The notes under the pieces are model-generated. The model saw only the letters and a program-made list of their open reading frames with translations, had not been told where the DNA came from and ran no database searches. 64,000 nucleotides of DNA, from NCBI RefSeq assembly GCF_002750975.1, contig NZ_PEJS01000001.1:744001-808000 (forward strand), given 5' to 3'. This document shows, piece after piece, positions 51,814-61,588 of this stretch (its first letter is position 1; each line of letters opens with the position of its first letter). This DNA comes from Stenotrophomonas indicatrix. Its GTDB lineage: Bacteria; Pseudomonadota; Gammaproteobacteria; Xanthomonadales; Xanthomonadaceae. Made by a program: the position numbers and the translations under genes.

Positions 51814-51856
51814 TTGCAAACAGACAATTTCCTCCCCTATGGTGCAATCGATTGCA
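51814..51856 (+). promoter_or_regulatory. promoter and operator of the 3-keto-glycoside operon (site 1)
   Basis: TTGCAA (51814-51819), an 18-bp spacer and TATGGT (51838-51843) form a sigma70-like promoter. The perfect palindrome TGCAATCGATTGCA (51843-51856) begins on the last base of the -10 box and covers the start point, the position of a repressor operator. The same palindrome occurs at 60502-60515. The first start codon is at 51905. Confidence 0.8.
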
Positions 51857-51904
51857 TTGCCGTGAATCGTTGCGTTTGATACCGGTTGGGAGGCCGGCAG
51901 GTGG

Positions 51905-52795
51905 ATGTCCATCCATTCGATCAGACCGGCCCCGGGCCTCACGCGGCGCGATGCGCTTCGCATGGCGGCCGCTGCGAGCCTTGGCTTGGGGGCGGCGGGC
52001 GTTCTGCCTGCGTTTGCCGCCACGGCGCCGCTCAAGGGCAACCTGAAGCATTCCGTGGCCCGCTGGACCTTCCCGCAGCTGTCGGTCGCCCAGCTCTGCG
52101 CGACGGTGAAGGACATCGGTTTTGCCGCGATCGACCTGATCGGCCCGGAAGACTGGCCCACCCTGAAGGCCCACGGCGTATACAGCTCGATGTGCAACGG
52201 CGCGGAGCTGGGCCTTACCAAGGGCTTTGCCGGCCGTGAGTTCCACGACCAGCTGGTGGAGCGCTACACGCGGCATATCGACCTGGTGGCCGATGCCGGT
52301 TACCGCAACCTCATCTGCTTTTCCGGCAACCGCAACGGGATGGACCCGCAGGAGGGCATGGCCAATGCCGAGGCCGGCCTCAAGCGCATCCTCGGGCATG
52401 CCGAGAAACGTGGCGTGGTGCTGGTGATGGAGCTGCTGAACTCCAGGGTCGATCATCGCGACTACCTGTGCGACCACTCCGCCTGGGGCGTGGAGCTGTG
52501 CCAGCGGCTCGGCTCGCACAACTTCGGCCTGCTGTACGACATCTATCACATGCAGATCATGGAGGGCGACATCATCGCCACCATCGGCAGGCATCACGCC
52601 TGTTTCAAGCATTACCACACCGCGGGCGTGCCGGGCCGGCACGAGATCGGGGACCAGCAGGAACTCAATTACCCCGCCATCTGTCGCGCGATCCGCGACA
52701 CCGGTTTCGATGGGTATCTGGCGCAGGAATTCATGCCTGCGGCACCGGATCCCGTTGGTTCGCTGCGCGAGGCCATCCGCCTCTGCGACGTCTGA
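51905..52795 (+). CDS. Tat-exported TIM-barrel sugar isomerase/epimerase-like protein
   Basis: 296 residues. The leader TRRDALRMAAAASLGLGAAG (RR at 14-15) is a Tat signal. The body is a xylose-isomerase-like/hydroxypyruvate-isomerase-type TIM barrel with metal-ligand candidates in VLVMELLNSRVDHRDY, LLYDIYHMQIM, HYHTAGVPGRHEIG and YLAQEFMP. Such folds bind a divalent metal and handle sugars, but Tat export of one is unusual and means it acts in the periplasm on a folded, metal-loaded form. In this operon it could epimerise or eliminate on a 3-keto-glycoside. It is first in the operon. Confidence 0.85.
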   Translation: MSIHSIRPAPGLTRRDALRMAAAASLGLGAAGVLPAFAATAPLKGNLKHSVARWTFPQLSVAQLCATVKDIGFAAIDLIGPEDWPTLKAHGVYSSMCNGAELGLTKGFAGREFHDQLVERYTRHIDLVADAGYRNLICFSGNRNGMDPQEGMANAEAGLKRILGHAEKRGVVLVMELLNSRVDHRDYLCDHSAWGVELCQRLGSHNFGLLYDIYHMQIMEGDIIATIGRHHACFKHYHTAGVPGRHEIGDQQELNYPAICRAIRDTGFDGYLAQEFMPAAPDPVGSLREAIRLCDV

Positions 52796-52821
52796 AACGA
52801 TATCCACCAGGTGAGAGATCC

Positions 52822-60485: not shown

Positions 60486-60501
60486 GTTGATTCGCCCTCG
60501 A

Positions 60502-60520
60502 TGCAATCGATTGCATTATC
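60502..60520 (-). promoter_or_regulatory. operator of the 3-keto-glycoside regulon (site 2) in the divergent promoter region
   Basis: TGCAATCGATTGCA at 60502-60515, identical to site 1; with flanks it is a 16-bp perfect palindrome (60501-60516). On the minus strand GATAAT, a -10-like box, overlaps its edge (60520-60515). It lies between the minus-strand operon and the plus-strand LacI gene, so one site could control both. Confidence 0.8.
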
Positions 60521-60580
60521 CTAGCAGGGGCATTCGAAAGACCCGTTGTGCACTGCACAGCGAAAGGAAGAGGTAGCGCC

Positions 60581-61588
60581 ATGGCCACCATCTACGACAT
60601 CGCAAGGCACGTCGGCGTCTCCGCAGGCACGGTGTCGCGAGCGCTTTCCCGGCCGGACAAAGTGCTGCCGGCTACTCGCGCGCGCATCGAGCAGGCCGCT
60701 GCTGCGCTGGGCTACGTGCCCAACACGGTGGCCAGGACACTCAAGACCCAGCGCAGCGGCAAGATCCTGGTCACCGTGCCGGACATCGCCAACCCGTTCT
60801 TCGCGCAGATCCTGCAGGGCGCGGAGGATGCGGCGCAGGCCGTTGGCTACGCCGTTCTGCTGGGCGACACCCAGAACCTGCCCGAGCGCGAGGAGCGCTA
60901 CGCGCAGATGCTCCGGCGCAACGAGGCCGATGGTCTGATCGTGCTGGGGCATCGCCTGCCGCCGACGGCGCGCGAGATTGTCCAGCAACGAGGTACCGCT
61001 GCACCGGTGGTCAATGGATGCGAATTCGATCCCGCGCTGGGCATCCCCAGCGTCCACATCGACAACGCGGCCGCCGCGCGCGCTGTGATGGAGCACCTGT
61101 ACGGACTGGGGCACGAGCGGATCGCTGTGGTGGGCGGACCGCCCGACAATCCCCTGCACACGCAACGGCTGGAAGGCGTGCGCGCCGCCGGCAGGGCGCG
61201 TGGCCGCCTGCGCCACCTCAGTGTCGTGCCGGGTGACTTTTCCGTGGAGTCCGGCCATGCGGCCGCGATGGCGCTGCTGCCGCCCGCAACCGCACCCACC
61301 GCGATCTTCTGCTTCAGCGACCAGATGGCGCTGGGTGCGTTGGCAGCCTGCCGTGACCTGGGCATCCGCGTGCCGGATGACGTCTCCATCGTCGGCTTCG
61401 ACGACCTGGCGTCATCGCGTTACCTCACGCCTCCGTTGACGACCATCAGGCAACCGATGCGCGAGATCGGTGAGCGCGCGGTCAACCTGCTGCTCGCCAT
61501 CATCGAACAGGTCGATGTACCGCTTCAGCAGACGCTGGATTTCAGCGTGATGCTGCGGGGTTCGACGGCCCCGCCCAAGGGTCGCTGA
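60581..61588 (+). CDS. LacI-family regulator of the 3-keto-glycoside regulon (predicted)
   Basis: 335 residues from ATG 60581 (AAAGGAAGAGG ribosome-binding region). The helix-turn-helix is TIYDIARHVGVSAGTVSRALSRPDKV, followed by the hinge and a sugar-binding-protein-like effector domain (GKILVTVPDIANPFFAQILQGAEDAAQ, VGFDDLASSRYLTPPLTTIRQPM). It is divergent from the minus-strand operon across operator site 2. The identical site at the plus-strand operon makes it the probable common repressor, relieved by a pathway sugar. Confidence 0.93.
   Translation: MATIYDIARHVGVSAGTVSRALSRPDKVLPATRARIEQAAAALGYVPNTVARTLKTQRSGKILVTVPDIANPFFAQILQGAEDAAQAVGYAVLLGDTQNLPEREERYAQMLRRNEADGLIVLGHRLPPTAREIVQQRGTAAPVVNGCEFDPALGIPSVHIDNAAAARAVMEHLYGLGHERIAVVGGPPDNPLHTQRLEGVRAAGRARGRLRHLSVVPGDFSVESGHAAAMALLPPATAPTAIFCFSDQMALGALAACRDLGIRVPDDVSIVGFDDLASSRYLTPPLTTIRQPMREIGERAVNLLLAIIEQVDVPLQQTLDFSVMLRGSTAPPKGR

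Follow-up and report, generated by a model that had tools for sequence, protein, structure and literature searches.

Organization of the locus

The window analyzed here is a 64,000-nucleotide stretch of the Stenotrophomonas indicatrix genome (4,555,512 bases in 9 contigs) and corresponds to positions 744001-808000 of contig 1. In its region 51843-61588, open reading frames and Pfam matches revealed two convergent operons and a gene for a LacI-family repressor, which is divergent from the minus operon. This locus very probably forms a LacI-controlled system for the non-hydrolytic breakdown of glycosides in which both operons are jointly repressed. The gene set, order, and orientation given in an earlier reading of this DNA (the original prediction) were confirmed by the open reading frames and the matching families. 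By their coordinates, neighboring genes within each operon either overlap or are separated by no more than 27 bases, and the minus operon is transcribed from 60488 downward in the order HYD, MFS, Gfo/Idh, OGE, and cytochrome c. Twin-arginine translocation (Tat) and hydrophobic leaders, and with them the compartments, were assigned by eye from the N-termini. The features are listed below by window position.

51843-51856, no strand: operator 1, TGCAATCGATTGCA, before the plus operon
51905-52795, plus strand: TIM1, TIM barrel protein (PF01261) with a Tat leader; presumed metal quartet E176/D212/H238/E275, eliminase-type His absent
52822-54507, plus strand: GMC glycoside 3-oxidoreductase (FAD-dependent glycoside oxidoreductase, FAD-GO; PF00732/PF05199); residue 493 is His
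54507-55082, plus strand: small subunit with Tat-type leader (PF13618, Gluconate_2-dh3)
55067-55840, plus strand: exported protein of the 3-keto-disaccharide hydrolase family (PF06439/DUF1080); alternative start, ATG at 55083
55851-56138, minus strand: small exported cytochrome c (PF13442), proposed acceptor of electrons from the GMC pair
56166-57035, minus strand: OGE, exported relative of O-glycoside beta-eliminases (PF01261) with an N-terminal hydrophobic leader
57052-58176, minus strand: Gfo/Idh oxidoreductase (PF01408), proposed 3-keto-glucose reductase
58189-59406, minus strand: major facilitator superfamily (MFS) carrier of the nucleoside:H+ symporter family (PF03825), proposed importer
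59433-60488, minus strand: HYD, relative of 2-hydroxy-3-keto-glucal hydratase (PF01261), without leader by eye and presumed cytoplasmic
60502-60515, no strand: operator 2, TGCAATCGATTGCA, between HYD and lacI
60581-61588, plus strand: LacI-family repressor, CytR-like; Ser14 in the helix-turn-helix

OGE, TIM1, and the PF06439 protein are each the sole match in the genome at the thresholds used. The set had been called complete, which was not borne out, an outer-membrane receptor being absent among its genes. An NCBIfam scan of ten proteins, with the product of a second LacI gene (lacI0) included and the cytochrome left out, gave zero matches at or above the model cut-off. The nearest named relatives of the locus are found in Stenotrophomonas bentonitica, a Stenotrophomonas metagenome-assembled genome, and S. 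rhizophila. Between the converging operons, a CTGGCG/CGCCAG hairpin at 55843-55862 spans the 10-base gap and the end of the cytochrome gene and is a possible shared terminator; it was not among the output of the terminator scan.

A predicted glycoside 3-oxidoreductase with its small subunit

Judged from its ends, the GMC gene of the window is the orthologue of the cloned glycoside oxidoreductase of S. maltophilia GIN612 (KJ922518; PMC4650693; this article and those cited below are quoted for the excerpts compared). Its final 24 bases are those printed for S. maltophilia R551-3 and GIN612, two of its first 24 bases depart from the gene start given there for R551-3, K279a, and SKA14, and the Pfam GMC domains are present. 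In PMC4650693, a Tat-annotated partner gene overlaps the oxidoreductase gene; the window has the same overlap, base 54507 being common to the GMC stop codon and the start of the small subunit, a PF13618 protein with a Tat-type leader. His493 is named there as the catalytic residue of the FAD-GO enzyme type, and residue 493 of the window GMC is likewise His, a match by residue numbering and not by alignment with the Rhizobium enzyme. When the small subunit was compared with PDB sequences, no hit was obtained at E 0.001.

The cloned GIN612 enzyme gave oxidized intermediates and deglycosylated products from ginsenosides and icariin (PMC4650693). Unlike the Agrobacterium enzyme, it was inactive on ginsenosides CK and F2, so the substrate range may be narrower. 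Oxidation of glycosides at C3 by the window GMC pair, as proposed in the original prediction, is supported by this relationship to the GIN612 orthologue, for which the activity is reported. The small cytochrome c would accept the electrons of the pair.

A predicted eliminase and a predicted hydratase

OGE is a relative of O-glycoside beta-eliminases and is predicted to release the aglycone, and HYD is a relative of 2-hydroxy-3-keto-glucal hydratase with predicted hydration activity. OGE shares 58% identity with PDB 8bvk, and its H156, H158, D187, H213, and E257 correspond to H132, H134, D163, H189, and E233 of AtOGE, the eliminase of the four-enzyme pathway of Agrobacterium tumefaciens (GlycDH, AtOGE, AtHYD, and Gfo; PMC10628242). 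All 55 relatives with at least 50% identity retain these five published active-site residues (metal site H132, D163, H189, and E233; base H134). HYD is 71% identical over 350 residues, its full length, to PDB 8ro4, whose entry title is 2-hydroxy-3-keto-glucal hydratase, and its E187, H189, D218, H244, and E301 are kept in 70/70 relatives. Seven Agrobacterium/Rhizobium loci encode matches at 93-99% to both PDB sequences, along with a GMC 76-77% identical to that of the window. Since near-copies of 8bvk stand beside near-copies of 8ro4 and a GMC gene, 8bvk can be equated with AtOGE by sequence and context; its His132 and His134 fall at the positions given in PMC10628242. That article describes the pathway as C3 oxidation, beta-elimination, hydration, and reduction and terms its own evidence for AtHYD preliminary.

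The route drawn in the original prediction holds in general, and the key steps that it left unnamed can now be named: the exported TIM barrel is an OGE relative and the first gene of the minus operon is an HYD relative, so cleavage is likely to proceed by elimination. Cleavage through the PF06439 protein is a possible second route. The idea that OGE export is special to Xanthomonadaceae was dropped, as a hydrophobic leader is likewise seen by eye at the N-terminus of the Agrobacterium OGE, and no shift of compartment is claimed.

A HYD paralogue (63%) was found on contig 1 at 2672065-2673114 (12066-13118 of stretch L122), beside two alpha/beta-hydrolases and a divergent TonB-dependent receptor, and paralogues at 62-63% occur in three other genomes of the genus. 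It was rejected as a second locus of this kind: in the 28 kb around it, HYD alone of twelve query genes matched, and the exact operator was absent.

A shared operator and its covariation with the repressor

The 14-mer palindrome TGCAATCGATTGCA occurs exactly twice in the whole 4.56 Mb genome, once before each operon, and about 0.004 copies would be expected from the base composition of the window. The region delimited in the original prediction begins, at 51843, on the first base of operator 1. Whole-genome counts in the family were made for the exact 14-mer only, and in this genome also with up to two mismatches. The backward-pattern control was 0 in every row of the family scan. With two mismatches allowed, seven further sites resembling the operator were seen on contigs 1 and 2, against three matches for the backward control.

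The family survey covered 149 genomes. A GMC at 84% or more, HYD, and LacI were found in the same 22 of them (the cassette genomes), and three further genomes had distant GMC matches only (49-69%). The exact 14-mer is present twice in 15 of the 22 cassette genomes; the other 7, which group with Xanthomonas in the tree, carry TGCAATCGATTGAA or TTCAATCGATTGAA instead. In the fetched stretches, exactly two CAATCGATTG cores, one before each operon, are found in 22/22 cassette genomes, and likewise in 32/32 named Xanthomonadaceae loci (L030-L061); the two sets overlap, with 46 distinct in all. The same operator thus precedes both operons and is conserved in relatives that carry the repressor.

Residue 14 of the repressor varies with the operators. 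Over 54 Xanthomonadaceae rows (the window, the 32 named loci, and 21 others; 46 distinct protein sets, with some genomes present twice and counts not corrected for kinship), Ser14 accompanies TGCAATCGATTGCA with its TGCA half-site at both operators in 39/39 rows, and Thr14 accompanies a TGAA half-site at both in 12/12. Residue and half-site agree at both operators in all 51 readable loci, three rows (L058, L060, and L061) being omitted for a lacI cut short at the end of the stretch. The repressor and its two sites thus change together, and this is the best evidence for one repressor serving both. These results suggest that one LacI repressor probably serves both operons, in support of the single-repressor regulon of the original prediction.

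A conserved TATGG abuts operator 1 in 45 distinct promoters, and a conserved CCTAGCA lies 4-5 bases from operator 2 in 44 (2 of the 54 rows were unmatched by the promoter-consensus script); these might be -10 regions blocked by the repressor. The best NCBIfam model for LacI is CytR, at 313 of 436 bits and under its cut-off. The interval from operator 2 to lacI holds a second palindrome, TGTGCAcTGCACA, at 60547-60559; most of 13 loci compared have it at a similar distance, in some cases in degraded form. The second LacI gene, lacI0 (49812-50843, minus strand), adjoins ssb and has no evident operon of its own.

Gene content of related loci

Gene content was surveyed in the best 80 of at least 592 GMC-relative stretches in named genomes, within the flanks of each fetched stretch (19 kb or less in 11 of the 80 loci). 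TIM1, the PF06439 protein, OGE, HYD, and MFS are all present in 37 of the 80 loci. OGE (at 45% or more) alone is missing from 17, mostly of Alteromonadaceae and Rheinheimera, which have the other four. Eight loci (Agrobacterium, Rhizobium, and Thioclava) have OGE and HYD only, three (Cellvibrio and Marinimicrobium) have TIM1 only, and 15 show other combinations of the five. Within the family, none of the 32 named Xanthomonadaceae loci examined lacks OGE or any of its five residues.

PF06439 protein, carrier, reductase, and TIM1

The PF06439 protein scored 144.1 bits against a Pfam cut-off of 26.8. Members of this family include the 3-ketotrehalose hydrolase BT2157, a Caulobacter DUF1080/PF06439 gene is important for lactose use, and one member is reported as an endo-xanthanase/lichenase (PMC9007349). 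The window protein would be likely to provide a second cleavage route.

Of the 80 best loci, 58 have the MFS carrier, and 57 of these 58 also have HYD, which fits the MFS as carrier of the HYD substrate; its substrate would be the freed keto-sugar, as suggested by the position of the gene. Its best NCBIfam model is the nucleoside permease 2A0110, at 362 of 446 bits and under the cut-off. From its place in the operon, Gfo/Idh is proposed to act as the 3-keto-glucose reductase. It is 30% identical to the Agrobacterium Gfo and so is not a closely related reductase. In such pathways, a given step is carried out by unrelated enzymes (PMC10628242), so the low identity bears on descent and not on mechanism. 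Against the Gfo/Idh proteins of clusters in Agrobacterium, Paracoccus, Halomonas, and Alteromonadaceae, identities were 27-36%, and the reductase has apparently been exchanged.

TIM1 has the fold and four matching metal-site residues (the presumed quartet listed above) of the epimerase group, features that are common to many activities. The His two residues past the first ligand, found in OGE (55/55) and HYD (70/70), is Leu or Phe in TIM1 (67/67). TIM1 is 15% identical to Escherichia coli YcjR (PDB 6wn6) and equally near or nearer to hydroxypyruvate-isomerase-like folds. TIM1 may act on a 3-keto-glycoside in the periplasm, most likely as an epimerase or isomerase.

Proposed pathway and alternative explanations

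The locus appears to encode the non-hydrolytic pathway already known, in which oxidation is followed by elimination, hydration, and reduction; genes for an oxidase, an eliminase, a hydratase, and a reductase all lie within it, the reductase being recognized at the level of the Gfo/Idh family only. The GMC flavoprotein would be exported to the periplasm together with the small subunit that bears the Tat leader and would there oxidize the C3 hydroxyl of the terminal sugar, and the electrons would pass from the pair to the small cytochrome c. The exported OGE would then remove the aglycone by beta-elimination, yielding 2-hydroxy-3-keto-glucal, and the PF06439 protein would offer a parallel route of cleavage for 3-keto-disaccharides. 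TIM1 may act as a periplasmic epimerase or isomerase on the 3-keto-glycoside, widening the range of accepted sugars. After import of the freed keto-sugar by the MFS carrier, cytoplasmic HYD would convert 2-hydroxy-3-keto-glucal into 3-keto-glucose, and Gfo/Idh would reduce this to glucose. LacI would bind the identical palindrome at both operon starts and keep both operons shut off in the absence of its inducer, which is probably a sugar of the pathway. The predicted products support the sequence of events foreseen in the original prediction, from oxidation and bond cleavage outside the cytoplasm to import and re-reduction. The oxidation, elimination, and hydration steps have described relatives; the carrier, reductase, cytochrome, and TIM1 are assigned by position only.

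Several observations weigh against this interpretation. The compartments on which it builds were assigned from leaders judged by eye. All rows with Thr14 fall with Xanthomonas, and near-copies are among them, so that 12 rows are not 12 events; by parsimony on the tree, residue 14 needs three changes, of which only one is forced, and the covariation is a small number of events. The exact 14-mer is also present in 12 of 127 cassette-free family genomes, in 9 of which another LacI gene lies in the fetched stretch. The site is therefore not private to the cassette LacI, and the 14-mer by itself was ruled out as a marker of the regulon. It looks like a general LacI-type site, with specificity here coming from position and conservation. 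A simple promoter scan gave zero sigma-70-type matches. The best model for Gfo/Idh, levoglucosan dehydrogenase, was scored at 192 of 650 bits, far below the cut-off, which makes the reaction assigned to it a guess.

The two operons could share a site and still be separately controlled, with another LacI such as lacI0 governing the plus operon. lacI0 is 1 kb from operator 1, and in the 9 cassette-free genomes just mentioned, the LacI genes that stand by the same 14-mer are nearer to lacI0 (about 39-41%) than to the cassette LacI. However, lacI0 was not found in the fetched stretch of many loci that keep both operators (it may lie elsewhere), whereas the cassette LacI is present in 22/22 cassette genomes and both operators follow its residue 14. 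We therefore consider separate control very unlikely and set lacI0 aside as regulator of the plus operon. Least plausible of all is a role of the set in the use of unrelated compounds, such as gluconate or nucleosides: the family names Gluconate_2-dh3 and Nucleoside H+ symporter, and CytR as the best-scoring LacI model, point that way, but the CytR and 2A0110 matches stay under their cut-offs, and three genes have close relatives of described 3-keto-glycoside chemistry.

Joint repression of a non-hydrolytic pathway also leaves room for a different weighting of its branches, in which disaccharides such as lactose, cut by the PF06439 protein, would be the main substrates and OGE and HYD would form a secondary branch. 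Lactose use in Caulobacter, for which both lacABC and the DUF1080 gene are important (PMC9007349), and the 17 related loci with TIM1, PF06439, HYD, and MFS but without OGE are in line with this weighting. The retention of OGE with its five residues throughout the 32 Xanthomonadaceae loci speaks against it, as do the seven Agrobacterium/Rhizobium loci, in which OGE is present and no PF06439 gene was found in the fetched stretch; we regard it as possible and rather doubtful. TIM1 might instead be a third eliminase or hydratase, sharing metal-site residues with those enzymes, but the Leu or Phe in place of their His makes this unlikely. We further suggest, tentatively and as a combination that we hold to be on the improbable side, that a single repressor tunes the pathway, its residue 14 setting the outer base pairs of the operator, and that TIM1 would be a Tat-exported, metal-dependent epimerase turning 3-keto-galactosides or other epimers into 3-keto-glucosides in the periplasm before cleavage.

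Comparison with known systems

The Agrobacterium tumefaciens pathway (PMC10628242) resembles the window in its GMC, OGE, and HYD at the identities given above, and its locus likewise has an adjoining LacI gene and an eliminase that is exported by eye. Unlike in the window, the Agrobacterium genes all run in one direction and the Gfo is distant; the TIM1, PF06439, and PF03825 genes of the window were not found in the seven fetched Agrobacterium/Rhizobium loci. The four-enzyme pathway was reportedly also the subject of a 2024 paper in Angew. Chem. A glycan oxidation/elimination pathway of gut bacteria is said to have appeared in Nature in 2024, with stepwise 3-keto chemistry that includes PF06439 proteins; we liken it to the window by NCBIfam names only.

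In Caulobacter, LacB is of the GMC type and LacC is a cytochrome. LacABC with DUF1080 likewise comprises a three-part, membrane-bound 3-dehydrogenase and a proposed periplasmic PF06439 hydrolase; unlike in the window, an OGE/HYD route is not described in the excerpts compared (PMC9007349). The levoglucosan cluster of Bacillus smithii (LgdA/B1/B2/C; PMC7676230) follows the same logic of oxidation, elimination, hydration, and reduction with a LacI gene nearby, but has an NAD-dependent first step and ATP-binding cassette transporter genes; the likeness is one of logic and not of sequence. E. coli YcjR is a 3-keto-D-glucoside 4-epimerase, and export is not mentioned in the excerpts of PMC11543891 compared, whereas TIM1 of the window has a Tat leader.

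Significance of the locus

The interpretation offered in the original prediction is partly supported. As a source of the 3-ketovalidoxylamine A C-N lyase activity reported for S. maltophilia strains, also put forward there, the locus is a hypothetical candidate. Comparison with relatives demonstrates, at the level of sequence, the enzyme relationships, the operator pair, and the repressor-operator covariation. The chemistry and the GMC gene of the genus Stenotrophomonas are already in print; PMC4650693 covers the enzyme and its partner, and operons and regulation are not covered in the parts compared. In our searches of the open-licence literature, we found no account of joint control through two operators, of a covarying repressor residue, of a PF06439 protein and an eliminase that share a switch, or of an exported TIM1. 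The finding is sound; for the most part it confirms what was known, and it adds points that can be tested.

The analysis gives step-by-step roles to nine genes whose relatives are often labeled hydroxypyruvate isomerase, gluconate dehydrogenase subunit, or nucleoside permease, and such loci are seen in Stenotrophomonas, Xanthomonas, Lysobacter, Pseudoxanthomonas, and Luteimonas. The apparent common switch of the eliminase and the PF06439 protein makes their division of labor genetically testable, and the locus family supplies a natural case of covariation between repressor and operator. It also presents a conserved exported TIM barrel that has the metal-site residues of the eliminase without the eliminase base. 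If TIM1 is a 3-keto-glycoside epimerase, one oxidase, one eliminase, and one hydratase would serve many sugars.

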